Assembly: GCF_014334335.1 (NCBI RefSeq)
Contig: NZ_JACSEU010000001.1
Location: 930,001-994,000, forward strand
Source of the DNA: Treponema sp. Marseille-Q3903
GTDB lineage: Bacteria; Spirochaetota; Spirochaetia; Treponematales; Treponemataceae
Direction: 5' to 3'
Length of the DNA stretch: 64,000 nt
Shown here: positions 24,037 to 41,199 of the stretch, in pieces
Layout of the letters: each line of letters begins with the position of its first letter
How positions within the stretch are numbered: position 1 is the stretch's first letter
Notes under the pieces: generated by a model
The model's database searches: none
Told to the model about the DNA's origin: nothing
What the model saw: the letters and a program-made list of their open reading frames with translations, nothing else
Made by a program: the position numbers and the translations under genes

Positions 24037-24103
24037 GATTATACTCCGTAATATTTTTTAGATAGTGAGAAGCCTTTTGATCAACACTGATTTTGATGTT
24101 CTG

Positions 24104-24175
24104 TCAGAAAATGATAATCAAGAGACTTTTTGTTTTTGTCAACGAATGTATGGGATAACTCGACCCACCGTCCAT
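24104..24175 (-). CDS. Possible 23-aa leader peptide upstream of corA
   Basis: An ATG five nucleotides after AGGAGG (minus strand) opens a 23-residue frame, MDGGSSYPIHSLTKTKSLLIIIF, ending 67 bp before corA. The ribosome site is the best in the region and nothing else explains it. It may be a leader peptide acting on corA, as short peptides do before some Mg2+ transport genes. It may equally be a chance frame. Confidence 0.35.
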   Translation of the reverse strand: MDGGSSYPIHSLTKTKSLLIIIF

Positions 24176-24194
24176 GGTTGCCTCCTGATAAAAA

Positions 24195-24214
24195 TAAATA
24201 TCAAATGATATTTA
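24195..24214. promoter_or_regulatory. 20-bp perfect palindrome upstream of the secretion operon
   Basis: TAAATATCAAATGATATTTA reads identically on both strands apart from the central AA. It lies in the 306-bp corA-gspD gap, about 50 bp before a small SD-led frame and 130 bp before gspD. It is a candidate repressor or activator site; the gap also holds a 24-codon frame and the TTTTGTCAAAA element. Confidence 0.45.
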
Positions 24215-24246
24215 CGTTATTTTAATGAATAAGGAGAGGTTTTGCA

Positions 24247-24321
24247 ATGATAAATAAAAATTTAAATTTTAGCAAAATCTTATCGGAAATTTTGTCAAAA
24301 ATCGTATTCTGCGGCAAATAG
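24247..24321 (+). CDS. Possible 24-aa leader peptide before gspD
   Basis: AAGGAGAG lies close upstream of an ATG that opens a frame of 24 residues (MINKNLNFSKILSEILSKIV, then FCGK). It stops 21 bp before the gspD start. The DNA of its second half is the element shared with the ssb upstream region, so the sequence may be kept for regulation and not for the peptide. No homologue is known to me. Confidence 0.35.
   Translation: MINKNLNFSKILSEILSKIVFCGK
24288..24321 (+). promoter_or_regulatory. Shared TTTTGTCAAAA element before gspD
   Basis: AATTTTGTCAAAAATCG (24288-24304) is identical to 11411-11427. The longer form, with TGCGGCAAATA eight bases further on, matches the ssb upstream region. See the separate finding. 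Confidence 0.5.
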
Positions 24322-24342
24322 TATTGTGGAGGTTAAAATATT

Positions 24343-26370
24343 TTGAGGCAGATGTTTTTTTCCGGTTGCGGAAAGTTTAAAAAGCTTGTGTTCTTTGTTC
24401 TGATTTTGGTGTTTGATTTTTTTTGTGTGGTTGCGAACGACGGATACTATAGTTGGGATTTTTCTGATTGCGATATTAAGGATATTCTTTTTGCCGTTTC
24501 AATTGACACCGGGATTTCCATAGTTCCTGATGATACTGTAAGCGGTAAAGGTAGCTTAAAGTTTGCAGGGAAAGAATTTGATGCTGCTTTTGAAGCGTTT
24601 TTGAAATCGGAGAGATTGTTTGTGAGCCGAGAACGTGATGTCTGGACTGTGAGCCGTTACTCACTTAGGAAAGAAAGGAATCTGTTATATTTAGATGTAT
24701 GCGATTTGACTCCTGTTCAGGTTGTTGAGAAATTATCAAAATCGATTAAAGGTGTGTTGACGTTTGATTCGTTGCCTGCTCAGAGGATTTCTGTTCATTT
24801 TTCAGGAATTACTGAGGAGAATTTGGTTGAAAGTTTGGCTAAACAGATAGGTGGATACACTGTTGTGCGCGGAGAACTTGGATATCATCTTGCGAAGAAA
24901 AATGAAAATAGACGTGTCGAATTTGGCGGTTCTGTTCTAGTTGAAAAAATAGATGACGGTTTTTCTGTTGACTTGAGAGAATGTAGTTTTACTGAAGTTG
25001 TCGAAAGGTTGTTTGAAATTGAAAAATTCAATGGAACTGATGTCAGTTTTTGTTTACTAGGTTGTAGTGATGCGAAAATTCAGAGATCTGTTTTTATTGG
25101 AGAAAATTTTTCGGATACTTTAAAAAAATTATGTTTACAAGCGGGCTGCAATTATGTATTTGAAGGTGATTTATTTTATTTTTTTGCAGATAGCAACTCA
25201 AAATCGGAAATCATCTCGGGTACAAGAAACTGGAGAAAATTTCAATTACGGTATACAAAGCCTCAGGATATTTTTTCCTTCATTTTTAAGAGGGTTGGAA
25301 AACTTGAAACAATTGCGCTTCCTGATGAAACTGCATTTTTGTGTTGCGCAAGCGAAAAAGAAAGTCTGGAAATTCAAAACTTATTATCTGAAGTGGACGT
25401 AAAGCAGTCTGTTTATCTTGTAAATCTGAAATACATAAAACCGTGCGAGCTTGTTGAACATCTTCCGCCTTGCGTCGAAAAAAATGCGCTTTTTTTTGCT
25501 GATGACAACAATTCGCTGTATTTTAGGGGAACCGAAGAAGCGTATAAAAATATGTGTTCTCAGATAGAGCTTTGTGACCGTCCTGTAAAACGTCTGACGT
25601 ATGATTTGCTTATCTTGCAATATGATGAAACGGGCTGCAACACATGGAGCTCATCGTTTGATTGTAAAAGGGTTTCTGCCGGAGATAAAAATAATATTTC
25701 CGTAGTTTTAGGTTCTGTGACAAGTTTTAACTTAAATATTGTGACTTCATTTGGGCTTGTGTTTGCAGCAGAACTTCAAAGTTCGATTGAGGAAAACAAA
25801 ACTAAAGTCTTTGCTGACACAACTCTTCACGGAGTTTCAGGAAAGCAGATCAGTTTTCAAAATACAAATACTTACAGATACAGGGATAATAATGTCGATC
25901 CTCAAACCGGAAAACCTGTTTATTCGGGTGTAACAAGGGAAATATCGTCCGGTATAAAACTTGACGTGCTCGGTTGGGTAAGCGGTGACAATCAGATTAC
26001 TAGCAGGGTGACTGCATCAGTTTCAAGACAGGGTACCGATATGTCTGCACAGACAGGAAACCCGCCGCCTACTTCTGAAAAAATTCTTACGACGGAAGTT
26101 TGCGGAAAGAGCGGGGAACCTGTTGTCTTAAGCGGTTTATTTCAGACTGCTGACAGTTTGCAGCAAAAGAGGACGCCTTTTCTTTCAAAAATTCCAATAA
26201 TTGGGCAGCTGTTTAAATCGAAAAAGCAGACAAATGAACAGAGCCAAATGGTTATCTATCTTGTTCCGCACCTTGACAATCAGAAAGCTGAAAAAAATGA
26301 GCAGAATTTTACAGAAGAATGGGCTAAAGAGCGAATTGAAAACTTGATTGAAATAATTGATGAAAAGTAA
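24343..26370 (+). CDS. gspD: Type II secretion secretin GspD
   Basis: Translation probably begins at TTG 24343 (GGAGG ten nucleotides upstream); an ATG lies three codons on. The 675-residue protein has a signal sequence (about 5-30), an N0-type domain (SWDFSDCDIKDILFAVSIDTGISIVP) and further periplasmic N-domains to about residue 420. The secretin core follows at about 440-640, with VFADTTLHGVSGKQISFQ, the segment TPFLSKIPIIGQLFKSKK and the closing MVIYLVPHL. Secretins form the outer-membrane gate. It is the first gene of an 11-gene plus-strand array (gspD to rhs) with gaps of 0-30 bp or overlaps. The C-terminal tail after the core is short. Confidence 0.9.
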   Translation: MRQMFFSGCGKFKKLVFFVLILVFDFFCVVANDGYYSWDFSDCDIKDILFAVSIDTGISIVPDDTVSGKGSLKFAGKEFDAAFEAFLKSERLFVSRERDVWTVSRYSLRKERNLLYLDVCDLTPVQVVEKLSKSIKGVLTFDSLPAQRISVHFSGITEENLVESLAKQIGGYTVVRGELGYHLAKKNENRRVEFGGSVLVEKIDDGFSVDLRECSFTEVVERLFEIEKFNGTDVSFCLLGCSDAKIQRSVFIGENFSDTLKKLCLQAGCNYVFEGDLFYFFADSNSKSEIISGTRNWRKFQLRYTKPQDIFSFIFKRVGKLETIALPDETAFLCCASEKESLEIQNLLSEVDVKQSVYLVNLKYIKPCELVEHLPPCVEKNALFFADDNNSLYFRGTEEAYKNMCSQIELCDRPVKRLTYDLLILQYDETGCNTWSSSFDCKRVSAGDKNNISVVLGSVTSFNLNIVTSFGLVFAAELQSSIEENKTKVFADTTLHGVSGKQISFQNTNTYRYRDNNVDPQTGKPVYSGVTREISSGIKLDVLGWVSGDNQITSRVTASVSRQGTDMSAQTGNPPPTSEKILTTEVCGKSGEPVVLSGLFQTADSLQQKRTPFLSKIPIIGQLFKSKKQTNEQSQMVIYLVPHLDNQKAEKNEQNFTEEWAKERIENLIEIIDEK

Positions 26371-26396
26371 AAAAGACGGAGATTTAGGAGGCAAAG

Positions 26397-27911
26397 ATGA
26401 GTGATTTTATTTTTAAGCTGACACCGGCGTACTGTCTCTACAATGGAGTTGCGGTCAAAGAGCAGCATGGATGTAAAATTTTTTTTATAATCGAAAATTT
26501 TGAAAACGAAATCCTGAAAAACAGTTTAAGGCGTGCATTCGACAGATATCTTGAAGATATTCTTTTGATAGACGGTTGTCCCTCTGAATATCAAGGTTTT
26601 TCTCAGATTGATTTTGTAGAAGGGAAACGCGAAGAGATAAGAAATTATGTTTCGGGGCTTTTCAAATCGAATGGCGAAAATCTGCCGTCTTTACAAGAAA
26701 ATGATAACAACAGTGACGAGGCTGCGGCTGTCATTCTTTTGGAGAGCATTTTGTCTGAAGCGAGAAAGGAAAATGCGACAGATATCCATATCGAAAAAAA
26801 TTGTGTCAAATTTCGGATAAATGGAATGTTGAAAACCCATGTCAGCTTGCTTCCTGAAAAAACTGTTGAACTTGTTCAGCGAATAAAACTTCTTGCCGGA
26901 ATGAATGTCCTTGAAAAACGAAAAAGTCAGGACGGACATTTTGTTCACGGGAATTCCAATCCTCTTTTTTTGCGTGTTTCGACAATTCCTGTCATTGGGA
27001 AAGAATATTCGGGAGATGAATCGCTTGTGATTCGTCTACTAGATACCGCAAGAGTTCCTCTCGCAATAGACTCTCTTGGTTTTAATCAGACGCAGATGGA
27101 AAAAATAAAAATGCTTGAAGGATACAAATGCGGACTTGTTGTCGTCTGCGGACCCACAGGATCCGGAAAATCTACGACAGTTGCATCAATTCTGCTTGAA
27201 ATTCAAAAGAAAATGTGCGGGCAATTAAAGATTATCAGCCTTGAAGATCCTCCTGAATATGTGATTCCCGGCGTTTCACAGATTCACGCCGGCAGTCAGG
27301 AAAACGGAGATAAATGTTCTTTTTCGGAATCGCTTGACCATATTTTCAGGCAAGACCCTGACGTAATCATGATTGGCGAGATAAGAGATGAGACGAGCGC
27401 AAACGCAGCGTTGAGGGCGGCACTGACAGGGCATCTTGTTTTTGCGACGCTTCACACGGGCAGCGCTGCCGAATCGATTTTGCGTCTGGAAAATCTAGGA
27501 TTAGACAGGGACATTTTGGCGTCTGTATTGCAGGGGGTAATCTGTCAAGAGCTGAACTATTTTGATGAAAAAGTCAGGCTCTACGCAGATATTGCAATAC
27601 CAAATTCGCGGTTTATAAAATCTATCTCAGTTACAAAAGATGAAGATTCAATTGATCAGCTGATGGAGCATTTTACAAATTATTCTGAAATCTTTGACAG
27701 AACTCTCGCTGTTTTGACAGGCAGAAATCAATTTTCGCAAGAAAATGCAGTTGAGTTGGAAGCGGGCGAGCCGATCGTTCTCGAGCAAAATGCCATTGTT
27801 GAGAAAAAATCAGTGTCTGCTTCAAAAACTAATGTTGAAATTGAAAAACAGCTGTGGAAAAGCAAAAGAGGAGCGCAGCGTGAAAGGAAAATTCACAAGA
27901 GAATTGTATGA
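26397..27911 (+). CDS. gspE: Type II secretion ATPase GspE
   Basis: The AAA-type motor of the secretion system. Walker A is GPTGSGKSTT near residues 252-261. The Asp and His boxes and Walker B are visible as ISLEDPPEY, QDPDVIMIGEIRD near 320-332 and ATLHTGSA near 350. The N-terminal domain is shorter than usual. The tetracysteine zinc module normally found after the His box is absent; the region reads VICQELNYFDEKVRLYADIA with one cysteine only, so the C-terminal part is reduced. The last 30 bp overlap the start of gspF. TAGGAGG precedes the ATG. Confidence 0.92.
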   Translation: MSDFIFKLTPAYCLYNGVAVKEQHGCKIFFIIENFENEILKNSLRRAFDRYLEDILLIDGCPSEYQGFSQIDFVEGKREEIRNYVSGLFKSNGENLPSLQENDNNSDEAAAVILLESILSEARKENATDIHIEKNCVKFRINGMLKTHVSLLPEKTVELVQRIKLLAGMNVLEKRKSQDGHFVHGNSNPLFLRVSTIPVIGKEYSGDESLVIRLLDTARVPLAIDSLGFNQTQMEKIKMLEGYKCGLVVVCGPTGSGKSTTVASILLEIQKKMCGQLKIISLEDPPEYVIPGVSQIHAGSQENGDKCSFSESLDHIFRQDPDVIMIGEIRDETSANAALRAALTGHLVFATLHTGSAAESILRLENLGLDRDILASVLQGVICQELNYFDEKVRLYADIAIPNSRFIKSISVTKDEDSIDQLMEHFTNYSEIFDRTLAVLTGRNQFSQENAVELEAGEPIVLEQNAIVEKKSVSASKTNVEIEKQLWKSKRGAQRERKIHKRIV

Positions 27912-28767
27912 ACTTTATGCAAAGCAAAACATTGGACTTGCAGAATGCTTGCGTATCATCAGTCATAAGCCGGGCAGAAAAAAAGATTTTGTAAAAAAAA
28001 CTGCTGAATATCTTCATAAATCGCTGGAAGATGGGAATTTTTTATCGAACGCTATGAAAACGTGCCCTTATTTTGATTTCGACGATATCTATATTTCTTT
28101 CATCAGAATTGCGGAGAAGACAGGAAAGTTTAAAGAAACAATCAGATACCTTATGAAGAAAATAGAACGTCAAGATGAAAGTCGAAATAAAGTTTTCGGC
28201 GCTATCATTTATCCGATTTTTGTCGTCGTTATCTCGGTTGTCGCATGTGTCTTTGTCTGTGCATATCTGAAAAAAGGAAGCATCGCTGATGTGTTTTGTT
28301 ACGTTGCGATTTTATCAGGAGCCTGTATTTTAATGCTTTTGATGATTGTCAAGTTTATTGGAGAAAACAAAACTTATGAGGCATTTCTCGCTGCCGATTT
28401 TCTGGTCAAAGCCGGATGCGGTATTTCTGCGGCAGTCGAATGTGCTGCCGGAATTGTTGGAAACAATACAAAAACCGGAAGGATTTTTAAGACTGCTAAA
28501 GAAAAACTTGAATATGGCTTTGATTTAAAAAGAGCTTTTTGTACCGATGGCAATTTTTCCGACGCTTTTTATTATGCAGATATTTCAGGAAATCAAACAG
28601 ATGTTTTTGAAAAGATTGCAATTTATCTGAATCAAAAAGATGAGAAAAAGAGAAAAGTTTGCCTTGTTTTGATTGAACCTGTTTTTATCTTGGTCACAGG
28701 TGTTTTTCTGTTTTCACTGATTTTAAAATTTATGGTTCCGTATTTGACGGATTTTAATTGGGTTTAA
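27880..28767 (+). CDS. gspF: Type II secretion inner-membrane platform protein GspF
   Basis: The GTG at 27880, six nucleotides after GAGGAG, is the likely start; the gene overlaps gspE by 32 bp in another frame. The 295-residue product contains both GspF cytoplasmic domains (ELYAKQNIGLAECLRIISHKPG ... IRIAEKTGKFKETIRYL; and FLVKAGCGISAAVECAAGIVG ... YADISGNQTDVFEKI) and three hydrophobic segments (near 105-125, 135-155 and 265-290). Typical GspF is about 400 residues, so this lacks the N-terminal cytoplasmic extension. It would bridge the ATPase and the pseudopilus. Confidence 0.85.
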   Translation: MKGKFTRELYELYAKQNIGLAECLRIISHKPGRKKDFVKKTAEYLHKSLEDGNFLSNAMKTCPYFDFDDIYISFIRIAEKTGKFKETIRYLMKKIERQDESRNKVFGAIIYPIFVVVISVVACVFVCAYLKKGSIADVFCYVAILSGACILMLLMIVKFIGENKTYEAFLAADFLVKAGCGISAAVECAAGIVGNNTKTGRIFKTAKEKLEYGFDLKRAFCTDGNFSDAFYYADISGNQTDVFEKIAIYLNQKDEKKRKVCLVLIEPVFILVTGVFLFSLILKFMVPYLTDFNWV

Positions 28768-28779
28768 GGAGGTTTGAAA

Positions 28780-29295
28780 TTGAATTTTAGAGCGTTGCTT
28801 TTTTTGAGGAGGAGTAGTGGAAAGTTTAAAAGAAAACGAATGTGCGGATTTCATCAATCTGAAGGATTTACGTTTATCGAAACAATCGTCGTCATCGCAA
28901 TCGGGACAATTCTTTCTGCAGGATGCGTATATTCAGGAGAAAAACTCATCGCAATTGCGCGAAAAGCGGCAGCAAAAAGCCAGATTGGGCAGTTCAGCTC
29001 CGCATTGCAGACGTATTTCCTCGATTGTGGCAGATTCCCGACAACGGAACAAGGACTTAAAGCTCTGTGGGAAAAACCGGTTTTCTATCCTGTACCGGAA
29101 AATTGGAACGGACCATACGTTGACCGTCAACCCGGTTCTGATCCGTGGGGAACCGATTTTAAGTATATCAGCGCTGAAAGTTCCTCTCTGCCGTCAGAGG
29201 TTCCTTCGAATCTGCCCTTTGTACTTATCTCATACGGAGCGGATAAAAAAGAAGGCGGTCAAGGAGATGACAGTGACATTGTTTCCTGGAAGTAA
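28780..29295 (+). CDS. gspG: Major pseudopilin GspG
   Basis: The probable start is TTG 28780, seven nucleotides after AAGGAGG; an ATG at 28840 would give a shorter leader. The product has a class III prepilin signal, EGFTFIETIVVIAIG, with cleavage expected between G and F and the Glu at +5 kept. The body has the GspG hallmarks: FLDCGRFPTTEQGLKALWEKP, WNGPYVDRQPGSDPWGTDFKYI and the calcium-loop-like SYGADKKEGGQGDDSDIVSW at the end. It is the piston subunit of the system. The leader is unusually long and basic (FKRKRMCGFHQS). No prepilin peptidase gene is in this window. Confidence 0.9.
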   Translation: MNFRALLFLRRSSGKFKRKRMCGFHQSEGFTFIETIVVIAIGTILSAGCVYSGEKLIAIARKAAAKSQIGQFSSALQTYFLDCGRFPTTEQGLKALWEKPVFYPVPENWNGPYVDRQPGSDPWGTDFKYISAESSSLPSEVPSNLPFVLISYGADKKEGGQGDDSDIVSWK

Positions 29296-29464
29296 GATTG
29301 CTGTTGTTTCGATTGTTCTAGTGTTCACAGCTTTTACGCTTGTCACAAACTGCGTGCGCACACAAAAAAAACTTGAAATTCAAAACAATCGTCATCAGCT
29401 GGAAATTGTAAAAAAACATCTTGATGAACAGAACAAACTTGAAATTGCCGGAAGCCGAATATGA
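29273..29464 (+). CDS. Small bitopic membrane protein in the secretion operon
   Basis: A GTG at 29273, six nucleotides after AAGGAG, opens a 63-residue frame overlapping the gspG end by 23 bp. The product has one membrane helix (KIAVVSIVLVFTAFTLVTNCV) followed by a charged, Gln/Glu/Lys-rich helix (QKKLEIQNNRHQLEIVKKHL), likely a coiled coil. An ATG at 29267 is the alternative start but sits too close to the ribosome site. Its operon position suggests an assembly component that stands in for one of the missing Gsp proteins (C, L, M or a minor pseudopilin). This is an inference from location and topology. Confidence 0.6.
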   Translation: MTLFPGSKIAVVSIVLVFTAFTLVTNCVRTQKKLEIQNNRHQLEIVKKHLDEQNKLEIAGSRI

Positions 29465-29474
29465 GACAATCGAT

Positions 29475-29840
29475 ATGAAATATTTTGAGATTATTTTAGT
29501 TGTGATAATGATGACTTTGCTTTCATCAGCAATGGCCGGGAGCGTTTCATCTGTTCATAAAGTCATCGAAAAATCGGAAAAAAGCCGCAGGGAATTAGAT
29601 TCGTTTGTGTTTATTTCAGATAGTTTTAGAAAAACGTGCAATGGAAAATGTTTTTCAAATCTTGAAGAATGGCAAGTTACGTGCAGAGTTATGTGGAATC
29701 TTGAGTATATAGGATGGGCAGACGCTGAAGATTTTATGAAAGTCGAAGCTGAGCCTGATGAAAAACTTTACTACGGCAGATGGAGCGGCCCTGATGGAAA
29801 TGGAGAAGTTTATTGCAGATGTCATGGAAAGAAAATGTAG
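29475..29840 (+). CDS. Pseudopilin-like protein without a canonical prepilin leader
   Basis: The chosen ATG is 10 nt after the stop of the small membrane gene. The 121-residue product begins MKYFEIILVVIMMTLLSSAMAG, which resembles the hydrophobic helix of pseudopilins (FTLIEILVVI) but lacks the Gly-1 residue and the usual Glu+5 spacing. A cysteine-containing domain follows (FRKTCNGKCFSN, WQVTCRVMWNLEY, CRCHGKKM). It could be a minor pseudopilin (H/I/J position) that is not processed by the standard peptidase, or another membrane subunit. An in-frame upstream TTG/ATG at 29421-29424 would lengthen it by 18 residues. Confidence 0.55.
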   Translation: MKYFEIILVVIMMTLLSSAMAGSVSSVHKVIEKSEKSRRELDSFVFISDSFRKTCNGKCFSNLEEWQVTCRVMWNLEYIGWADAEDFMKVEAEPDEKLYYGRWSGPDGNGEVYCRCHGKKM

Positions 29841-30946
29841 TTCATAAAAATGATGCCGAACGATATAAAATTGCAGTCCCATTTAATTTTTTGTTCGGTA
29901 AAAAAAGGCAAAAGTATATTTCATCGGAATTGGAAAAACGACATCCGTGTTTTACAGATGATTTCGGGTTTGATTCAGTTTTGACTTTGGTACATGGAAA
30001 ACCTATGCTCGACGTTGTTGTTGCAAAAAAAATAAAGCTCGAAGAAAACATCGCTGACTTAAAAAAAAGAAAATTTGTTTACGCTGCCGGATTTGTGTTT
30101 TTTGTCATCTGTCTTTTGCTCTTTTCCTTCGTTATTGTTTTTAATCACAAGAATGATAAGACAAAGGCGTTTGAAAATGATGAAAAAGAAGACGGTGTTG
30201 AACAAACAAATGTGCAGTATTCTGCTGGGGCAGATGGTTTTTCCGGTTTTGATTTTTGTGATTTTTTATTTGAAATTGTTGGAAAAAATAACGGGCGAAT
30301 CAGAGAGCTGTCATTAAAGTACGATTGTTTTACACAGACAGTTGAAGCTTTAGCAAAAGGTATTTATCCCGAACAGTTCTCTGAAATTTATTCGGATTTG
30401 TTTATTTTGCCTGTCAGTTATGAATCGGAAGTTCCTGTTTTAAAATGTAAGTATAAAGGAAAAGTCAAAATCGATAAAAAAAACGAAACATGCGATTTAA
30501 AAAGCTTTTTGCCGCGAATCAGAAAAGTGCTTGTTCAGTGTGATGGCGATCTTATCGAGGAAAGCATAAATCCGATTTTGTTTAGGTTTAATTACGGCGA
30601 TGTGGAAAAAATCTTGAGGGAAATCGATTGTGTCTGCAAAGATGAAAATGTAGGAATTACGCAATTCGATATTGCTGAAAATCAAAAGACAATTTTATTT
30701 GATAAAGATGTCAGCTACTGTGACGGGATAAAACTTAAAAACATCTGTGACAACATCAGGCTGTTTGATGTTCGTGTAAAACACGTAAAAAAGACAACTA
30801 TATCTGAGAAAAAAGCTACTGAAATGAAAATCGCAAAAAACATTGCAAAAAACATCACAAAAATCGGGGAAGTGAAGTATCAAGACGGGACAACTAATGT
30901 CTTTTACAAAGACTCAAACGGGAAATTAGTCAAGGAGAGAATGTGA
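29813..30946 (+). CDS. Bitopic inner-membrane protein of the secretion operon, unassigned
   Basis: The TTG at 29813 is seven nucleotides after GGAG and overlaps the preceding gene by 28 bp. The 377-residue product has about 85 cytoplasmic residues, one membrane helix (FVYAAGFVFFVICLLLFSFVIVF, about 87-110) and about 265 periplasmic residues with beta-rich and ferredoxin-like character (IEESINPILFRFNYGDVEKILREID). This topology and its place after the pseudopilins match GspL or PilN/O-like assembly proteins, but the actin-like cytoplasmic domain of GspL is missing. The C-terminal segment ISEKKATEMKIAKNIAKNITKIGEV is basic and helical. Function is unproven. Confidence 0.6.
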   Translation: MQMSWKENVVHKNDAERYKIAVPFNFLFGKKRQKYISSELEKRHPCFTDDFGFDSVLTLVHGKPMLDVVVAKKIKLEENIADLKKRKFVYAAGFVFFVICLLLFSFVIVFNHKNDKTKAFENDEKEDGVEQTNVQYSAGADGFSGFDFCDFLFEIVGKNNGRIRELSLKYDCFTQTVEALAKGIYPEQFSEIYSDLFILPVSYESEVPVLKCKYKGKVKIDKKNETCDLKSFLPRIRKVLVQCDGDLIEESINPILFRFNYGDVEKILREIDCVCKDENVGITQFDIAENQKTILFDKDVSYCDGIKLKNICDNIRLFDVRVKHVKKTTISEKKATEMKIAKNIAKNITKIGEVKYQDGTTNVFYKDSNGKLVKERM

Positions 30947-31542
30947 ATAGAAAAAGTACAGTTTTTAGCTTAATCATCGGTTTTATGATTTTTTTTACGG
31001 GATGCGTTTCAAAACCTCATTTCAGCGGAAAAGGAGACATGTGCGGAATGATTCTCGATGAAAACAACAAGCCTATCTCTGACTTTATTATTTATTGCAA
31101 TTCCGGCCCACTTTTTTTTGGGGCAGCAAGTACAAATGCAGAAGGTATTTTTGTCTTTCACGATGTTCCATCGGGAGAGTACTCCCTGTACGGCGAAAAA
31201 AACGGTTTTGTAAAAATGAAAAAAACAGGCTATTTTTTCAACGACAGAACAAAACTTTTCTGTTGCCAATTGATATCAGCTTCTACCGCATTTTGTAAAA
31301 TCGATAAATATTTGAAAAACGGAGAAATAGAAAACGCCGCAGAGCTCGTTGAAAAAATCTGTTTTGAAAAAGACTCTGTGCTCGCTTCTGTTGTCATTTC
31401 TTATCAGATTTACCTTTTGTCTTTTGACACAAACAAAAACAAAAATAAAAAGAAAATCGAAAAATTTATAAAAAGGCTTCGGGAATTAAAATCGATTGAC
31501 TGCAAAAATTATGCAGATGAAATGGAGGAAAAATTATTATGA
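30943..31542 (+). CDS. Lipoprotein with carboxypeptidase-regulatory-like domain
   Basis: It starts at a GTG that overlaps the previous stop (ATGTGA). The 199-residue product has a lipoprotein signal ending FFTGC. Residues about 30-95 form a CarboxypepD-regulatory-like beta-sandwich (GMILDENNKPISDFIIYCNSG, STNAEGIFVFHDVPSGEYSLYGEKNGFV). The rest is helical and basic (NKNKNKKKIEKFIKRLRELK). It could be a periplasmic accessory or a pilotin-like factor for the secretin, judging from position only. Translation appears coupled to both neighbours. Confidence 0.6.
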   Translation: MNRKSTVFSLIIGFMIFFTGCVSKPHFSGKGDMCGMILDENNKPISDFIIYCNSGPLFFGAASTNAEGIFVFHDVPSGEYSLYGEKNGFVKMKKTGYFFNDRTKLFCCQLISASTAFCKIDKYLKNGEIENAAELVEKICFEKDSVLASVVISYQIYLLSFDTNKNKNKKKIEKFIKRLRELKSIDCKNYADEMEEKLL

Positions 31543-31985
31543 AAATATTGTTTATAAAAAATAGCCTTGCACTTGTCATTTTTGCATTTTTTATGATAAC
31601 AGGATGTTCTTGTTTTGCTGAAAACAATATTCCGTATATTGTCGACGCAACTGTGGAAATGAAAGAATCATCATCAGAATACGAAATATGTGGACTAGAT
31701 CTTTATTTTTTGAATAAGTCTGAAAGCGATGTCGAATCATTTACAATCTCTTTCTTTTTGTTTGATAAAGACGGTAATCCTATATCGACTGGGAAAAGCA
31801 ACATCGTGCTGACGATTGAAAAGCAAATTGAAAAAGAAAAACCGTTCACGACGTGTATCAGCCTTGATAAATACTTCAACGTCGTCCCCGATGAAATATA
31901 CGGAATAGATTATCTTTACGTCAGCAGAATTGAATATTCTGACGGTTCTGTGTGGTCTGACCCATTTGGAATGAAGCGTTTTTGA
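31539..31985 (+). CDS. Small lipoprotein of the secretion operon
   Basis: Its ATG overlaps the previous stop by 4 bp (ATGA). The 148-residue product has a signal with MITGCSCFA, a probable lipobox, and a beta-rich domain (VDATVEMKESSSEYEICGLDLYFLNKSE, FTISFFLFDKDGNPIS). It resembles a FxLYD-like sandwich, but I would not name a family with certainty. Two lipoproteins in a row in a secretin operon make a pilotin role for one of them possible. Confidence 0.55.
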   Translation: MKILFIKNSLALVIFAFFMITGCSCFAENNIPYIVDATVEMKESSSEYEICGLDLYFLNKSESDVESFTISFFLFDKDGNPISTGKSNIVLTIEKQIEKEKPFTTCISLDKYFNVVPDEIYGIDYLYVSRIEYSDGSVWSDPFGMKRF

Positions 31986-31996
31986 AAGGGGGGGAG

Positions 31997-33409
31997 ATGA
32001 AAAATCGTAAAAAAATATTTTTGATTTTATCTGCTTTGTCTGTTTGCATTTTTGACGTGCTTTTTTTGTTCAGCTGCAAAATGATTTTCCCCGACGTCAT
32101 GAAAAACGGCGGAGAGCATATTTCAATCGACAAACCTGAACACAAATACGATGATGAGTCAAAACTTGAACAGCCTCTGTGGAATATTTTAATCTACATG
32201 TCCGCTGACAACAACCTTGAAGGAAACGCAATCGATGATATCTGTGAGATGGAGAGTTCCAACCTTGATGTAGAAAAAGTTTGCGTTTTCGTCTTAATCG
32301 ACAGGCATCCGGGGTATGACTCATCAGATGGGAACTGGACAGGGACTCGTTTATATAGATTAAAAACAAATTCTAAAATTTCCAAAAAAAAGATAATTTC
32401 CGAAGAGATTGAATGCAGGGAACTCGGTTTAAAAAAAGGCGAAAATACAGAACTCGATATGTCGTCTCAGTATGTTTTTTCCGATTCGTTGAGTTTTATC
32501 ACAAAACATTTTCCTGCAAAAAATTATGGGCTTATAATCTGGGGGCATGGAACCGGATATAAAGGCTTTTCGTATGACGAAACTTCGAGAACTTATATGA
32601 CGCTGTCTCAATTCGGAGACTCTCTTTGTTCCACTCTCGGAGACAGCAAGTTAGACTTTATCGGGTTTGACACATGCTTTGGAGCGGAAATTGAAGTTGT
32701 CTATGAGTTGAAAGATTACGCTTCGTATTTCATCGGGACGGAAGGGCTTCAGACAACAACAGGGTGGAATTATAAAGAGATATTCAATCAGTTTCAGCAA
32801 AACGAAAATAAAACCGCATTTGTTTTTTGTAAAGCAGTAAATGACAATTTTAAAAAGTCGTATTCAACTGTTCCAAAAGCATCGATTGCATGCGTCGATA
32901 CGGCTAAATTTAGAGAATATTTTTCAGCTTTTGACGATTTTTGTTTTGAATCTGCAAAAGTCATCATAAGTCGCAATGTAAGAGATGATATCATCGATAT
33001 TTTGCTTTCAAAAAAAGAAGTCAAAACAGAGCGGTATTCATACGAATCTGTCGGAAGCGACATTTATTTAGATAATTATTCGCTTGTGAAAAATCTGACT
33101 GATTATTTTAGAAAAAAATTAAACGCAGAAGATTCTGCTCAAATTATAAAACGGGCGGAAAAATTTTTCGAAAGCGATGAGGCTGTTGTGGCTGAATCAT
33201 GGGCATCTGATAGAGACAGAGGCGGGCTTGGAGTTTACTTTTCGACATATACGTCAGGGCTTCTTTTGAGCGTAGCCCATCCGGGTGAATACACAAAAGG
33301 AAAATACGCAAATCAGATTCAGTTTGTAAAAGACAGCAACGGCTATGTTCCCGACACGAAGATGGGGGTAAGTCTTTTAAACAAACTTTTTTACTCAGGA
33401 TACAATTAA
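31997..33409 (+). CDS. Clostripain-type (C11) cysteine peptidase, exported
   Basis: The ATG at 31997 follows AAGGGGG by five nucleotides. A signal with FLFSC suggests a lipoprotein. The catalytic core is clear: WNILIYMSADNNLEGNAIDDICEME at the domain start, the His motif YGLIIWGHGTGY (His about 184) and the Cys motif FIGFDTCFGAEIEVVYEL (Cys about 227), the order and spacing of clan CD C11 peptidases, which cut after Arg or Lys. Many C11 enzymes self-process. It sits between the secretion genes and the RHS gene, only 16 bp before the latter, so it may be a co-exported substrate or the enzyme that trims the RHS protein. Confidence 0.87.
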   Translation: MKNRKKIFLILSALSVCIFDVLFLFSCKMIFPDVMKNGGEHISIDKPEHKYDDESKLEQPLWNILIYMSADNNLEGNAIDDICEMESSNLDVEKVCVFVLIDRHPGYDSSDGNWTGTRLYRLKTNSKISKKKIISEEIECRELGLKKGENTELDMSSQYVFSDSLSFITKHFPAKNYGLIIWGHGTGYKGFSYDETSRTYMTLSQFGDSLCSTLGDSKLDFIGFDTCFGAEIEVVYELKDYASYFIGTEGLQTTTGWNYKEIFNQFQQNENKTAFVFCKAVNDNFKKSYSTVPKASIACVDTAKFREYFSAFDDFCFESAKVIISRNVRDDIIDILLSKKEVKTERYSYESVGSDIYLDNYSLVKNLTDYFRKKLNAEDSAQIIKRAEKFFESDEAVVAESWASDRDRGGLGVYFSTYTSGLLLSVAHPGEYTKGKYANQIQFVKDSNGYVPDTKMGVSLLNKLFYSGYN

Positions 33410-33425
33410 TTTTTTAGGAGGGTTT

Positions 33426-36400
33426 ATGAAAAAAATACGAGGAATCTTATTTATCATTTTGTTATCGTTTCTTTCTGTAAATGTTCTTTACGCAAAAAAA
33501 AATAAACCGAGCAATAACAACGAGAGTTCTTCAAATAGCAAAACATCAGGTAGCGGGAAAGCAAAAGATAATTATAACAAATCTACGCAAAATTCAGGGA
33601 ATGCTACAAGTACTGCAAACGGAGCAAAAAGCGCTGCTGTGGAAGCAAAGAAAGCGCTTGAAAAAAAAGATAAGGCAGCTGCAAGAGTAAAACTAGCAAA
33701 AGCCAAAGAGGAAGCTTCAAAAGCTAGAAATGATCTTGCAAAAGCGAAAGCCGAAGAAAAACGTGCTAAATTACAAGCTGCAAAAGAAAGAGCCGCAATG
33801 GCGAGGGCGAACTCAAAGGATATTGAGGCGGTTAATAAAGAATTGTATGAAGCAGAAGTTGAAGCGACACAGGCTCTTCGAGATGCGGAGGACGCTTCTA
33901 TCGATGCGGCTCGTGCAATTCGAGAAGTGGAAGAATCCCTTGATGAGTTTGGCGAGCTCAAAGCGGCCGCAGAAGATGCACAAAATGCTGCTGACGAAGT
34001 TGAGAAAGCTTCTAACGAATTGAGAAACATGGAAAATAAAGTTTTGAATGAAGAAGAAAATAGATTAAAAGAAGTATATGACAATATGTTAAAAATTAAA
34101 ACAGTTTTGGGTCCCGACGAGAGGAAGGCGTTTTCCGACTGGTATAATAGACAGAAAGAGAATCTTAAAACAAAAGTAAAAGATGATCCGAGAGTTAAAG
34201 AAAAATATCGTGAACTTGAAAAAAAATGCGATTATGCAAAGACCATGTATAAAAATCTGGGTGATACCTACAGAAAATACAATATGGTTGGAGACCCTGT
34301 CAACATCGCAGATGGAAGTTATTCTTGGTCGAACGATGATTTTACAGCGACGTGCTATCAATCATCCTTTTTGATAAAGCGAAGCTTTTGTGAAAATAAA
34401 TCTGTAGAATCGTTCGGGAAAGGCTGGACGTGCCCTTTTGATTCTCGAATTGTAAGGTGCGTTTTTGATGATTATGACAAAGATATAAAAAACGCTGAAG
34501 AAAAAATCGCTCTTGCTGCGAGAATGAAAGCGATTTGCGACAAATACAACAGAGATTTTCCAAATTACCCCGATGACATTTTGATTTCCTACGAAATAAA
34601 AGCTAAAAACATCGGTGCTGTTTTTGAAGGTGTAAAACAATACTGTGTGCAGAGAAACAATTTGAGAAATTTTCTTATCGATAAAAACAAATATGTCACG
34701 TACGGAAGATTTTCGAATCCGGAAAGTTATAGCGGCTTTGAAAACAACTTGAAACTCCTCGACGAAGATGGCAGTGAACATTTTTTTTCATACGATTCAA
34801 ACGGAAAATGGAAGACTCTTTCAAAATTGTCTTCGCTGAACATGACGCTTTATGGGCTCGATCAAAACGGAAATATCGCATCTGACGACAACACTGACGG
34901 CGGATATCTTTTAAAATTTTCAGATGGAAACAAGATTTATTATTCAAAATATGGCGTGCTGGAGAAAAAAGTCGATAGGAACAACAACGTAACTCAATAC
35001 AAAAATATCGGCGGGCGGATAAACGAAATAATTCTTGCAAACGGAGAGCGTATCAGCGTAAAGAGAGACGGTTCTAACTTTATAACAGAGATTTCAAGCG
35101 ATGTTTATGGGAAATCGACTTATTCATACAATGCGAACACCTTGAAAACCATCACAGACAATTCAGGTTATAATTTTGGATATCAGTACAATCAAAACTT
35201 AAATCTAACTAAAATTATCCGCGGTGACGGAAGCAGTATCTCTATCAACTATGAATACAATCCGCTGCTTTTAAAAAATGTATGTGCCGCAGTTGCTACC
35301 GATTCCGGTTTAACCGAAAAATTTTCCCTCGATGTTGCAAAACGACAGATGATTCATACTTCTTATTCCGGAAAAAACGAAATAAGCCGTTTTAACAATT
35401 ATGGAAGCCCAGTCGAAGTCATCGATATTTACGGTAACAGAACGTTATTTGAATATAATTCTGACAATCTGATTATGACAGTTTCCGAATGCGGCGTAAA
35501 AAAACATCTTCTTTATGATGATAAATTGCGTTTGATATCGGTTTGTTATGACGGCGGCGGAGCAACTCATTTTAAATACAATGATTTCAATCAGCTCACG
35601 CAGATAACTGATTCCGATAATTTTTCGAGAACGTATCAATACGACAAAAAAGGAAATTTGCTCTTTGAGTATTTTAATGGCGATAAAGTCGCCGAGTATG
35701 AATACAATGAAAAAGGTCAAAAAATCAGGGAGAGGAACAAAAATTTTGAAATCGAATACGAATATGATAGATACGGAAATCTGACTAAACAAAAAAATGT
35801 AGAACTCAATGGCAATCGAAGGATATTTATAAACTCCTATCAATACGATTCTCAAAACAGGCTTATAAAATATTCCGATGAAAACGGTCATTTTGTAAAA
35901 TATCAATATGGAGAAAATTCCGTAACGCAGATTTGTGACAATTCAAGAAAAATTGAGCGAAAATACGATAAACGAAAACTTGAAAAGGAATCTGTGATTT
36001 TCGATTTAGTCAGCGGCAAAAAATATGAAGTGCGAAAAACTTATGATGAGCGCAATAATCTTGTGAAGAAATACATCGATGGGCAATTATCAGAAGAATA
36101 TGTGTACGATGATGACAATGTTCTCGTATGCGAAACTAAATGGAACATCCCTCACAAAGATTCACCGATAGAAAGATTTTTTTGCAAAACAGATTATATT
36201 TACGACAGCAAAGGATTTGTCAAAACTGTAAAAAAATATGATTCAAAAACAAAGGCGGAAGTTGCCTATCACAAAAAAGTTGACGAGCGTTCTGAAAATA
36301 CCGTTATCACTCAGACAGATCCGTCAGGGTTCACTTTGAAAAACACTTTTGACAAATTTGGAAGAATAATCAAAGAAGAGGCGAGCGACGGAACTGTGAG

Positions 36401-39400
36401 GATAATTAGATATTCTAAAGCTGGAAGAATTAAGCGGATAGACGTAAACGATTTTACTTCTTTAGAATATTTTTACAACAATGATGGAAGCTATTATACG
36501 ATAAAATCGACAAAAAACGGTAAATCGGAGAGATGTGATTATGATTTTAATGACAATCTTATATCTGTAAAAGATTTCTCAGGTTTGGAATTTTCTTATC
36601 AATACGATTCTGCAGGCGATTTGATTTACAAAAAAACTCCTTCGTATGAAATAAAACTCACCAGAGACGATTACAGAAGGGTGATCAAAGAAAAAATTGA
36701 ATCAACATCGTTTGGAAGCGAAAGCAGATTTTCAAGCGAAATCGAATACGTGTACGATGATTCTGCAAACGCAGTTTTTGAAAAGCACGGAGGAGCTTGC
36801 TGTCGTATCACAAGATTTGACGGTTTTGGAAATATGATTGAGCGGACAGACGAGAAAGGTCATCAGATATTCATATATAATTATAGGGGAGAGTGCATTG
36901 AGAATGTTGACGGCAATCAAAATAAAACAATATTCGATTATTCTCCTGAAGGGAAAATATGTTATATAAAATATCCTGATGGAATTGAAGAATTCCCACT
37001 TGATAATCAGTCAAAAAAATATGATTCTGCGACAAGAACGATTGAGATAAAAGATGCGTTCGGGGCAGAAAGTAAAATCATCTTCAATAAAGACAATCAG
37101 ATTTCTTCAAAAACCGATTCAAAAACCGGAACTTACATTTATTCATGCAGCGAAGACAAAAACCTTTATAGAAAAACAATCGAAATAAAAAAAGAAAACG
37201 GAGCTTCAAGGCAATATAATTATGATTTTGAAGGAAATTTGATAAGTGAAAGAAATGAAGTTGGAAAAGTTCAGTCTTATGTTTATGACGGAGAGCACAA
37301 CGTTGTTGAACTGACAAATTTTAGCGGCAAAAAAGATTCTTTCAAGCACGATTTTTCAAACAACACTGAAACATTTTCATACAGCGACGGAAATTGGGCA
37401 AAGATAAGCCGCAATCCGCTTGGTCTCATAACAAAAATGGAAGGAAATTCATTTTGTTATCGGTATCAGTATGACGATTACGGAAAACTTTTAAAATTTA
37501 TCGATGATAAAACTGATGTTGAAGTTGAATATAAATATGACGTGTATGGCAGATGTATCGAAAAAAAATCGCCAAATTTTGTTTTCATCTATCAATACGA
37601 CGAATGTGGCAGAATAAATAAAATTTCAGAAAATATTTCAGGAATCGGCATAGATATAAAATACGATTCTCGTTCCAGAAAAACTGAAATGGTTTATTCA
37701 AATGGGATTGAAACTCGCTGGAAATATAATAAAATCGGGCTTCTCGAAAGCTGTGTAACAAAAAATCAAATCGGTGAGATACTAAATGCTGATTTTATTC
37801 TTTATGACGAAAACAATAGAATCAACTTTGTTTGCGACAAAGACGGCAATTACAGGAAATACGATTACGACAACGATGGAAAACTGATTTCGGAAAAGCA
37901 GAAACTGACTCCCGACATCGTAGAATTCTATAAGAATGAGGCAATCGATTGCGGACTGTATCTCGATTCAAAAAATACCGGCGCTGCTGTGTTCAATATT
38001 GATTATTCAGATTATGATGCAATCAATCAGGTGATGAAAAATGCGGGAATTGAAAATGTGAAAGTGCAGTTGAATCAGCCTGTGTGGGTTCAAAACTATC
38101 AGTATACGTCTGAAGGCAATGTAAAGTCAGCTGAAAATATCTTTGGAAAGATTTCTTACGAGTATGATATTGCAGGGAGGCTCTGCCTAAAGCGCTGTCA
38201 AAACACCGAATCGGAAGGCATGAAGTTTGAATGGGACGATGATAACTGCCTTACAAAGATTTCTAACAAAGACAAAGAGATTTTGTTTGTCTATAATTCT
38301 CAAAAAAGACCTGTCTCAATCATAGAAAAAGATATCGCTTTAAATGAATACAAAGTCGATGAATATAAATACGATGCTTTTGGACGGCGCATTCAGCACA
38401 CCGATAGCGACGGAGTTGTAAAAAATATCGTTTACGACGGTTTTTTGACTTGCGTTTTGGAATGCTACGTTTTGATGGAAAACGGAGAATCTAATATCAA
38501 ATATGCAGCAGGAAATGTTGACTACGGAGATGATTTTGACAATTTCAGACGTGTCGATGACAGTAAATATAAAGCGTTCGAAAACTCGAAAGGACTTCAT
38601 CCGCCAGTTGTTGAAACATATCCTGAAACGTATAAATCATTCGATAGTTCTCAATTTGATATTTCTCAAAACGAAAAAAAATCAAAGACAAAATCGGCTA
38701 AAAATGATAATTCGTATGCAGTTTTGAATTTTGCATGTGTTCCTCTTGTCTACATAAATTTTTCATCTGCAAAAAACTCCTGTGATGAAAAAGAATACGC
38801 CGTTGTCGATTTTAAGGAAAACTGTTCTGCATTTTGCAAAAACGATTCTTTTTCAGTCGATTTTAACGTATATGACGCGTGGGGAAATATAATCAACAAT
38901 TCAGAAACTGCATCGTACAGTTTATCGAGTTCATACAATTCAGGATTTTGCTTTTATGATCTTGGATACAGAGATTATTTTCCTCAGTTGAAATGTTTTT
39001 CATCTCTTGACCCGATAAGAGCCGGGAACAATTGGTTTGCGTTTTGCGCTGGTGACCCTGTAAACTATTTTGATGTTCAAGGGTTTGATATCAATAACGT
39101 AGCCCAAAATCATACAATGCAAGATTACAATGATATCAACCTTGGAAATTCTCATGAAGAGAAAATTGCCAAATATGGATGTTATTTGATAAGCCTGGCT
39201 GATATCATCGCACAGATGAACAAGGATTTAGGACTTGATAATGAACATAAAAATAAATATGAAGATCCGTTGATAGCAAACAGCGATTCTGATTTATTTT
39301 CGGCGAACTCAGGAGATTTGAAAGGGGATCATGCAATGGATAAGCTTTTTGGAGAAGGTAACTGGAAAACCTATAACGGTGAAAACAGCACCACTTGTGA

Positions 39401-39680
39401 ACGTGACCTAGCACTTTATATGGCGAACGTTCTTCCAAGAAATTATTACGCTGTAGGCGTTTTTGATCTTTCGGAAGCATGTCCAAAAGCTGTAAATCAC
39501 ATGGTTGTACTAAACGGGCTTCCTGATGAAAACGGATATTTTGATGAAAGTTCAATCACAGTATCGAGCGAAAATGATACAAAACGGTTGAATGACGATC
39601 AAAAGAAATTAGCATACAGAAGTGGAAATCTAAAAGAAGTGCGCTTGATTTCAGACAGCCACGATTTTTGCAAAAAATAA
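33426..39680 (+). CDS. Giant RHS/YD-repeat exported protein with C39-like tip
   Basis: A 2084-residue protein with a Sec signal peptide (MKKIRGILFIILLSFLSVNV). A long Lys/Ala/Glu helical segment (about 60-280) is probably a coiled-coil stalk. A DUF6531-like start of the RHS shell follows (MVGDPVNIADGSYSW near 286), then dozens of YD repeats (YEYDRYGNLT, YKYDVYGRCIEKKS and similar). The RHS core terminus is near 1835-1885 (SSLDPIRAGNNWFAFCAGDPVNYFDVQG). The usual DPxG self-cleavage motif reads DVQG. The last 195 residues resemble a papain-like C39 peptidase domain: KYGCYLISLAD with Cys about 1919 and NHMVVLNGLPDENG with His about 2025. No immunity-like gene follows. It is the last gene of the secretion array. 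Confidence 0.88.
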   Translation: MKKIRGILFIILLSFLSVNVLYAKKNKPSNNNESSSNSKTSGSGKAKDNYNKSTQNSGNATSTANGAKSAAVEAKKALEKKDKAAARVKLAKAKEEASKARNDLAKAKAEEKRAKLQAAKERAAMARANSKDIEAVNKELYEAEVEATQALRDAEDASIDAARAIREVEESLDEFGELKAAAEDAQNAADEVEKASNELRNMENKVLNEEENRLKEVYDNMLKIKTVLGPDERKAFSDWYNRQKENLKTKVKDDPRVKEKYRELEKKCDYAKTMYKNLGDTYRKYNMVGDPVNIADGSYSWSNDDFTATCYQSSFLIKRSFCENKSVESFGKGWTCPFDSRIVRCVFDDYDKDIKNAEEKIALAARMKAICDKYNRDFPNYPDDILISYEIKAKNIGAVFEGVKQYCVQRNNLRNFLIDKNKYVTYGRFSNPESYSGFENNLKLLDEDGSEHFFSYDSNGKWKTLSKLSSLNMTLYGLDQNGNIASDDNTDGGYLLKFSDGNKIYYSKYGVLEKKVDRNNNVTQYKNIGGRINEIILANGERISVKRDGSNFITEISSDVYGKSTYSYNANTLKTITDNSGYNFGYQYNQNLNLTKIIRGDGSSISINYEYNPLLLKNVCAAVATDSGLTEKFSLDVAKRQMIHTSYSGKNEISRFNNYGSPVEVIDIYGNRTLFEYNSDNLIMTVSECGVKKHLLYDDKLRLISVCYDGGGATHFKYNDFNQLTQITDSDNFSRTYQYDKKGNLLFEYFNGDKVAEYEYNEKGQKIRERNKNFEIEYEYDRYGNLTKQKNVELNGNRRIFINSYQYDSQNRLIKYSDENGHFVKYQYGENSVTQICDNSRKIERKYDKRKLEKESVIFDLVSGKKYEVRKTYDERNNLVKKYIDGQLSEEYVYDDDNVLVCETKWNIPHKDSPIERFFCKTDYIYDSKGFVKTVKKYDSKTKAEVAYHKKVDERSENTVITQTDPSGFTLKNTFDKFGRIIKEEASDGTVRIIRYSKAGRIKRIDVNDFTSLEYFYNNDGSYYTIKSTKNGKSERCDYDFNDNLISVKDFSGLEFSYQYDSAGDLIYKKTPSYEIKLTRDDYRRVIKEKIESTSFGSESRFSSEIEYVYDDSANAVFEKHGGACCRITRFDGFGNMIERTDEKGHQIFIYNYRGECIENVDGNQNKTIFDYSPEGKICYIKYPDGIEEFPLDNQSKKYDSATRTIEIKDAFGAESKIIFNKDNQISSKTDSKTGTYIYSCSEDKNLYRKTIEIKKENGASRQYNYDFEGNLISERNEVGKVQSYVYDGEHNVVELTNFSGKKDSFKHDFSNNTETFSYSDGNWAKISRNPLGLITKMEGNSFCYRYQYDDYGKLLKFIDDKTDVEVEYKYDVYGRCIEKKSPNFVFIYQYDECGRINKISENISGIGIDIKYDSRSRKTEMVYSNGIETRWKYNKIGLLESCVTKNQIGEILNADFILYDENNRINFVCDKDGNYRKYDYDNDGKLISEKQKLTPDIVEFYKNEAIDCGLYLDSKNTGAAVFNIDYSDYDAINQVMKNAGIENVKVQLNQPVWVQNYQYTSEGNVKSAENIFGKISYEYDIAGRLCLKRCQNTESEGMKFEWDDDNCLTKISNKDKEILFVYNSQKRPVSIIEKDIALNEYKVDEYKYDAFGRRIQHTDSDGVVKNIVYDGFLTCVLECYVLMENGESNIKYAAGNVDYGDDFDNFRRVDDSKYKAFENSKGLHPPVVETYPETYKSFDSSQFDISQNEKKSKTKSAKNDNSYAVLNFACVPLVYINFSSAKNSCDEKEYAVVDFKENCSAFCKNDSFSVDFNVYDAWGNIINNSETASYSLSSSYNSGFCFYDLGYRDYFPQLKCFSSLDPIRAGNNWFAFCAGDPVNYFDVQGFDINNVAQNHTMQDYNDINLGNSHEEKIAKYGCYLISLADIIAQMNKDLGLDNEHKNKYEDPLIANSDSDLFSANSGDLKGDHAMDKLFGEGNWKTYNGENSTTCERDLALYMANVLPRNYYAVGVFDLSEACPKAVNHMVVLNGLPDENGYFDESSITVSSENDTKRLNDDQKKLAYRSGNLKEVRLISDSHDFCKK

Positions 39681-39728
39681 AAAGTAAAATAACAGCGGAT
39701 AAATAAAACGGCAGAATCAAAGTTAAAT

Positions 39729-39763
39729 AAAAACGCCACCGGTTTTGTTCAGATGGCGTTTTT
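39729..39763. terminator. Bidirectional terminator between the RHS gene and the CobW gene
   Basis: AAAAACGCCA (39729-39738) and TGGCGTTTTT (39754-39763) form a stem flanked by A-runs and T-runs on both sides. It fits termination of the long plus-strand array and of the minus-strand gene. Confidence 0.85.
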
Positions 39764-39775
39764 AATTTTTCAAAA

Positions 39776-40999: not shown

Positions 41000-41199
41000 A
41001 TTATTTATACCTCGATTTTTCAGATTATTAACAACTAATATAATAAAAAAAATGTGAAAAGTATATGAAATATGGAACAAATAGAAGCAAAATTATGGTA
41101 TATTATCCGAACAATGGGTGTCGCAAACCAAAAGTCAGTTATTTTTTTTGTGACAGTTCCACACTTTATAATCATGCTATTTATAAAAAGAGGATGAAA

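Follow-up and report, generated by a model that had tools for sequence, protein, structure and literature searches.

The window analyzed here, a stretch of 64,000 nucleotides of the genome of Treponema sp. Marseille-Q3903 (G000:C1:930001-994000; genome size 2.51 Mb), carries on its plus strand, at positions 24343-39680, an array of 11 genes (gspD, gspE, gspF, gspG, o5a, o5, o6, o7, o8, C11 and RHS) that runs from the secretin gene of a type II secretion system (T2SS) to a giant RHS protein gene. Every junction in the array is either a gap of at most 26 bp or an overlap of at most 32 bp, and the tight succession of 11 plus-strand genes described in the original prediction was confirmed with its coordinates. 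Judging from the sequences of the window and of its relatives, we lean, by a small measure, toward considering this array as a toxin-secretion island of gut treponemes, from which the RHS protein would be exported via a compact T2SS. The array is composed as follows (aa, amino acids; ORF, open reading frame):

24343..26370, plus strand: gspD-like secretin, first gene of the array (675 aa; TTG start, an ATG at 24352 being possible; PF00263, 92.4 bits)
26397..27911, plus strand: gspE-like ATPase (PF00437, 232.6 bits)
About 27880..28767, plus strand: gspF-like inner-membrane protein (PF00482, 100.2 bits; the ORF opens at 27745, and the start near 27880 is taken from relatives)
28774..29295, plus strand: gspG major pseudopilin (TIGR01710, 100.4 bits against a cut-off of 88.85; N_methyl)
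29267..29464, plus strand: o5a, 65 aa with a single hydrophobic stretch, pseudopilin-like by position only, with weak matches in L034 and L039
29475..29840, plus strand: o5, leaderless and minor-pseudopilin-like by reading (alignment A5)
29813..30946, plus strand: o6, probable compact GspL/GspM(PilO)-like assembly-platform protein
30943..31542, plus strand: o7, lipoprotein by reading, with a carboxypeptidase-regulatory-like domain (PF13620, 22.1 bits, below the cut-off of 32.3)
31539..31985, plus strand: o8, exported, DUF5780-like (PF19092, 27.1 bits against a cut-off of 28.2)
31982 or 31997..33409, plus strand: C11 (clostripain-family) peptidase (PF03415, 139.1 bits)
33426..39680, plus strand: RHS protein, 2084 aa (PF05593 in 7 stretches; Rhs_assc_core, 35.5 bits)
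39084..39680, plus strand: C-terminal domain of the RHS protein, 198 aa (alignment A8)
39729..39766, plus strand: intrinsic-terminator-like hairpin 3' of RHS (fold z of -2.97 for 39722-39775)

The array is likely to be an operon. A stem followed by T runs is located about 50-85 bp past the RHS stop codon (39729-39766; -13.8 kcal/mol, z -2.97), and no stable hairpin was found at the C11-RHS junction (fold z 0.04). The earlier observation had likewise noted no internal hairpin terminator. A consensus scan of positions 23500-41000 returned 54 promoter-like sites, for 47.3 +/- 6.6 expected by chance, and 14 terminator-like sites, for 12.5 +/- 3.7 expected. Since these numbers are at chance level, the scan is no argument for or against an internal promoter. 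Just upstream of gspD (24246-24320) is an ORF of 24 codons whose ribosome-binding site is strong; it may encode a leader peptide or be the product of chance.

Conservation of the gene order was assessed with a gspD-alignment scan that returned 144 places, the best 80 of which were kept; 18 of these 80, having less than 8.5 kb downstream of gspD, were omitted and 62 loci were counted. A second set, overlapping in part with the first, consists of 17 same-genus loci from the genomes of relatives. The record titles of the scanned loci name Treponema or spirochaetes, and many of them cite rumen, reticulum, omasum or faeces. The conserved gsp-C11-RHS order that the original prediction had proposed looking for in spirochaetes was indeed found, the complete D-E-F-G-o6-o8-C11-RHS succession being collinear in 46 of the 62 loci (at least 8.5 kb after gspD). 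The order from D to C11 is collinear in 57 loci and C11 was found in 58, while C11 stands directly upstream of RHS in every one of the 46 loci with an adjacent RHS. Of the 17 same-genus loci, 13 have RHS after C11 and 3 have it at a different place, while in the remaining one the contig ends too early to tell. Adjacency of RHS required 4 changes on a 63-row gspD tree, against a mean of 14.5 after shuffling (0/500 shufflings as low), and midpoint rooting gave one gain and three losses of RHS adjacency. The array is present in Treponema bryantii and T. ruminis isolates; in T. ruminis RU1 (CP031518; L104, L164), it lies on the chromosome with an RHS open frame of 1931 aa.

Then, co-occurrence was examined in 59 relatives, which are related genomes and hence not independent trials. 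Eighteen of them were counted as carrying this gspD (E-value of 1e-100 or better and at least 40% identity), leaving out G039 (38%, an outgroup gspD) and G030 (40%, confined to the last half). A match of more than 500 bits to the RHS core profile was obtained in 18/18 genomes with this gspD vs 0/41 others (best other 309 bits, in G039), and the C11 profile exceeded 430 bits in the same 18 genomes and in none of the 41 others (best other 264 bits). Of the 41 genomes without this gspD, 18 have weaker RHS-repeat matches. Chance adjacency was ruled out by the 46 collinear loci together with this co-occurrence, with the same reservation on related genomes.

Regarding the secretion machine, the identities initially given to GspD, E, F and G were upheld by Pfam matches over the cut-offs, GspG also passing its NCBIfam cut-off; the window proteins score below the cut-offs of the NCBIfam equivalog models for GspD, GspE and GspF. 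The gspD product, which is the sole PF00263 match in the genome, scores 86.7 bits with the PilQ model and 78.0 bits with that of GspD, neither of which reaches the cut-off. This order of scores would suit a type IV pilus or DNA-uptake machine rather than a T2SS, as would the best fold match of o6, which is PilO, and the fact that the GspL-type domain is related to the pilus protein PilM. Nevertheless, GspG exceeds the cut-off of the T2SS major-pseudopilin model, the matches to the N-terminal fold of o6 are all of the T2SS GspL type, and the array encodes a single GspE/PilT-type ATPase, so that a pilus or uptake function appears very improbable to us.

The remaining components were more difficult to assign. 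By reading, o5a and o5 are pseudopilin-like, and the minor pseudopilins H, I, J and K were considered for these positions. The o5 protein, like several relatives in appearance, starts at a Met without a leader and has a Glu at position 5; it gave no Pfam match over cut-off and a 12.9-bit profile match with the 136-aa ORF that follows gspG in L154. In a PDB profile search, o6 modestly resembled parts of the GspL and PilO folds; GspM, GspC and PilP were not among the matches listed, which excludes nothing. PF05134 (GspL) has no match anywhere in the genome of the window and PF11356 (GspC) has none either, the latter model detecting only 3/14 control genomes. A prepilin peptidase gene (A24) is located outside the array, at G000:C1:307926-308258 (28.7 bits against a cut-off of 26.5); among the relatives, A24 was found in 21/26 genomes with a secretin match vs 1/33 others (the 33 include G005, which has an 18-bit secretin match). 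The original prediction had listed GspC, L, M, K and the prepilin peptidase as absent from the cluster. The peptidase is indeed encoded outside it, but elsewhere in the genome, and given the resemblance of o6 to portions of GspL and PilO, to call GspL and GspM absent was too strong and had to be revised. Hence, the machine is probably less reduced than first described and would lack neither an L/M-like component, in the form of o6, nor a prepilin peptidase.

A second T2SS lineage exists in the same genus (L154 in G031, L057 in G021 and L058 in G009), in which the secretion genes are followed by lipoproteins and a giant protein. This protein matches SpvB, TcdB_midN and RHS in L154 (3380 aa) and L058 (3150 aa) and is cut at 1313 aa in L057; in L058, gspE, F and G do not adjoin gspD. 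The lipoprotein o7 has a 35.5-bit profile match with a similar lipoprotein of the fuller T2SS in L154.

The RHS protein of the window comprises a Sec signal, a Lys/Ala-rich N-terminal region, the RHS core and a variable C-terminal domain. Its original description as an RHS protein with a Sec signal agrees with the PF05593 and Rhs_assc_core matches and with our reading of its N-terminus. The best match with Rhs proteins of the PDB has an E-value of 9.7e-16, and a search in viral contigs gave no match. This protein looks like a polymorphic toxin. Across 15 RHS proteins (105 pairs), a variable C-terminal domain was found on a conserved core: L035/L033 and L035/L040 bear dissimilar tails on cores that are 47-49% identical, and the tails of L035 and L146, at different chromosomal sites, are 46% identical with cores 42% identical. 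The tail of the window protein has no Pfam match, is similar to that of L034 (36%) and contains conserved Cys and His residues. Conserved Cys/His residues in several tail classes suggest that these may be cell-wall or peptide hydrolases. Sub-threshold Pfam hits of the tails include YkuD (L035, L147) and NlpC/P60 (L161), besides unrelated names.

An exported ORF on the same strand directly follows RHS in 20 of the 28 RHS loci with a 3' end, the signals being read by eye and the 28 including one locus that is partly masked and one that is split in two frames. Similarity between downstream ORFs was detected in 17/190 pairs, each of them within one tail class, the classes being derived from alignments and reading and three of the 20 loci having no firm class. 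All 15 pairs of the YkuD-like class, to which L165 of T. bryantii B25 belongs, and the single pair of class N2 are similar. In L035, of the YkuD-like class, the immunity-like ORF (L035:3072-3966, minus strand) carries a PF25302 (NADase_transloc) domain (80.5 bits). Further tips were found in the genome of the window itself: on the minus strand of C1:617-36659 (0.6-36.7 kb; L169, L148, L053), 8 or 9 RHS 3' tips with small ORFs lie together with transposase-like ORFs and an amino-terminal piece of gspD (about 225 aa). These tips best resemble the L040/L144/L035 type (47-75%); their resemblance to the window RHS is about 25-29% for longer stretches and 38-50% at short core ends. The region has the appearance of a degraded second locus that has become an array of orphan cassettes.

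The exported cysteine peptidase of the original prediction is a C11 peptidase according to PF03415 and, by reading of its N-terminus (LFSC), a lipoprotein. It possesses the His and Cys dyad, which is intact in 58 of 62 aligned C11 sequences, and its family profile (A3) matches the PDB clostripain 9cip with an E-value of 1.5e-39. A crude signal-peptide rule called 58/60 C11 proteins lipoproteins, but also 20/80 GspE proteins exported; for this reason, it was not used and signals and lipoboxes were read by eye. C11 and RHS co-diverge beyond gspD: over 47 loci, their pairwise distances given gspD have a partial r of 0.45 (0/499 permutations as high), the RHS distances being computed on only the first part of the protein (909 columns). 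C11 distances given gspD gave values of -0.16 with E, -0.06 with o6 and -0.07 with G, and RHS distances gave 0.09 with E, 0.07 with G, 0.08 with o8 and 0.16 with o6, the last also with 0/499 permutations as high. Cleavage of RHS by C11 is plausible, and we consider the chances that C11 acts on RHS to be evenly balanced. Longer C11 open frames (832-913 aa) with extra N-terminal sequence were noticed in L134 and L136, within the array, and in L153, whose genome (G054) has no gspD match.

Taken as a secretion island, the array would function as follows. A compact T2SS, composed of GspD, E, F, G, the small pseudopilin-like proteins, the o6 platform and the prepilin peptidase encoded elsewhere, would be inherited together with the small envelope proteins o7 and o8, the membrane-anchored C11 and the giant RHS. 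The latter would enter the periplasm by the Sec pathway and its shell would fold around the swappable C-terminal domain. C11 may then trim or release RHS, which would exit via the GspD channel and act on neighbouring cells, whereas the downstream exported protein, where present, would shield the producer. Since no immunity-like gene follows RHS in the window, protection would here come from elsewhere or be unneeded. The toxin-immunity part of this scheme, taken alone, is in our opinion probable, although our estimate was lowered because the tails of class C pair little with downstream ORFs; the exit of RHS by the GspD route is rated as fairly likely, somewhat below the former.

Several observations weigh against such an island. 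Gene order is no proof of substrate, and relatives in which RHS sits apart from the gsp genes, which the original prediction regarded as contrary to the link, do exist: 8 in-clade loci of the 62-locus set have RHS placed elsewhere, as do the 3 loci mentioned above of the partly overlapping same-genus set. However, the 8/8 in-clade genomes without adjacency keep a full-length RHS of the same family elsewhere (1861-2069 aa, by profile). Therefore, within the clade RHS is retained in the genome and its place is not fixed. In L159, o8, C11 and RHS sit together with an exported ORF at a non-gsp site; in G019, o8-C11 at one contig end and RHS at the start of another contig, not joined, fit the same move. 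In the 8-row outgroup of the gspD tree, C11 is present in 6 rows and RHS is at its usual place in none, L125 having RHS nearby in permuted order, so that C11 must have another or older role. RHS and a lipoprotein gene adjoin gspF in the permuted array of G072 (L163), RHS is on another contig in G077, a 270-aa open frame is all that G075 holds, and an RHS tail was found near gspD by profile in G078 (L168). Four of the 8 outgroup genomes have no RHS-repeat match, which is a lower bound: PF05593 misses some RHS, as in the genome of L138, for which it gave 0 and profile A11 found an RHS tail (L168) on what appears to be the same contig (G039:C12), and the absence of RHS from the other outgroup genomes is to be read accordingly.

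These findings raise the question of whether the T2SS and C11 form a general secretion and processing unit, for instance for degradative enzymes, of which RHS would merely be the last gene, encoding a Sec-exported envelope protein of the WapA kind that does not use GspD. The 8 displaced in-clade genes would fit this explanation, and so would the outgroup loci L128, L134, L135, L136 and L140, which have gspDEFG-o6-o8-C11 without RHS beside C11, the genomes of L128, L135 and L140 being devoid of any RHS-repeat match. It hardly accounts for an RHS family present in 18/18 genomes with this gspD vs 0/41 others, nor for RHS lying near gsp genes in other arrangements, such as the permuted L163 or the loci L061 (G038), L052 (G044) and L168 (G039). 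In these three, which belong to two other families of the order, RHS and small exported ORFs lie upstream of gspD at a distance of 1.4-2.7 kb, and a prepilin peptidase gene occupies the interval. The second T2SS lineage of the genus also carries another giant RHS protein. On the whole, a general unit with RHS as its mere last gene seems unlikely.

The tails raise further difficulties for a toxin island. In class C (six tails), only 1/15 downstream-ORF pairs are similar; 0/26 tails pass a Pfam cut-off, and when three of the tail classes (A7, A9, A10) were used for profile searches of the PDB, nothing or chance matches came back. Moreover, 8 of the 28 loci have no counted downstream exported ORF, namely the window, L037, L038, L043, L044, L046, L164 (T. 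ruminis) and L167 (JC4), an exported HtrA-like protease gene that follows RHS in L037 and L038 being excluded from the immunity-like count. A search for the L034-type downstream ORF in the genome of the window, carried out without a positive control, found nothing. Loci without immunity-like ORFs, together with the rumen, reticulum, omasum or faeces origin in many record titles, are compatible with an RHS that targets eukaryotes, e.g., rumen protozoa, instead of bacteria. Such a target is improbable in view of the tail-class-specific downstream ORFs and the orphan tip array, since both are typical of antibacterial toxin-immunity systems.

The role given to C11 is weakened as well. In L120 and L124, a Glu replaces the C11 His beside an RHS, and G029 keeps a full RHS while its only C11-profile match has lost both catalytic residues, hence cleavage by C11 is not obligatory everywhere. 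Linkage, or exchange of neighbours without function, could also give the C11-RHS correlation: o8 and C11 distances given gspD show a value of 0.28 (0/499 permutations), in line with hitch-hiking. C11 might accordingly be a surface protease or the principal cargo of the T2SS, the C11-RHS pair travelling by linkage without any enzyme-substrate relation. With the root placed as drawn on the tree, C11 was part of the locus before RHS became adjacent. We hold this for rather unlikely, though less so than a general secretion unit, as C11 directly precedes RHS in 46/46 loci with an adjacent RHS and as, of the three related loci with RHS elsewhere (L094, L095 and L096), the first two lost the C11 dyad that the third keeps intact.

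With regard to known systems, a precedent exists for an RHS protein whose activity depends on a T2SS. In Xanthomonas perforans, the RHS-family bacteriocin Bcn-A is inactive in an xpsD (GspD) mutant; its locus has an immunity gene, as many of the loci described here appear to. In contrast, according to the portions of that article consulted, Bcn-A is devoid of a signal sequence and its five-ORF locus contains no gsp gene, with no C11 peptidase mentioned (PMC7259588). Sec/T2SS was also listed as the route for many polymorphic toxins of the RHS type, for which Table 1 of the source gives no signature neighbours (Zhang et al., 2012; PMC3482391, excerpts). The toxins described therein share with the island the signal peptide, RHS repeats, variable C-terminal domain, immunity neighbours and standalone cassettes. 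The same excerpts propose clan CD (caspase-like) peptidases as toxin-processing enzymes, usually as a domain of the toxin, whereas C11 is here a separate lipoprotein gene.

The RHS core of the window is homologous over one to several hundred residues to Rhs effectors linked to the type VI secretion system (T6SS; PDB 8h8a, 7q97, 8qja and others), from which the window RHS differs in having a Sec signal and in lying beside T2SS genes; Pfam detected neither a PAAR nor a VgrG domain in RHS or in the array. The TcB/TcC-type SpvB-TcdB_midN-RHS proteins of L154 and L058 are likewise giant RHS proteins beside T2SS genes, but the SpvB and TcdB_midN models that match them strongly have no match in the window RHS. 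From these four missing matches, a T6SS or Tc route was ruled out for the window RHS. Like the canonical T2SS of Vibrio (Eps) and Klebsiella (Pul), the system described here has D, E, F, G, a prepilin peptidase and GspL/PilO-like folds; unlike them, it has no GspC or GspL by Pfam and one short L/M-like protein, and its array includes C11 and RHS.

The gsp-C11-RHS array was not found in the open-licence PMC literature searched. In the light of what is known, the array would represent polymorphic RHS toxins accompanied by a linked T2SS and a C11 lipoprotein. The "new kind" of delivery cassette put forward in the original prediction has thus to be narrowed: T2SS-dependent activity of an RHS protein is not new, and what looks new is that a probable polymorphic RHS toxin is linked to a seemingly dedicated T2SS and to C11 as a lipoprotein of its own. 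It is conceivable, although we would advance it only tentatively, that this T2SS is dedicated to essentially one cargo, a compact Gsp machine co-evolving with its C11 maturase and an interchangeable RHS toxin and immunity cassette, as a T2SS counterpart of CdiA/CdiB and T6SS-Rhs that arose more than once in spirochaetes.

In T. bryantii and T. ruminis, an RHS shell of about 2000 residues with a signal peptide is linked, both physically and in its evolution, to a secretin, an ATPase, a pseudopilin and a peptidase, so that its passage across the outer membrane becomes a testable question. For T. ruminis, a genome survey lists, in the portion consulted, neither RHS/YD repeats nor a complete secretion system (PMC8049484); our analysis indicates that this species has an RHS and a set of secretion genes that the survey did not list.

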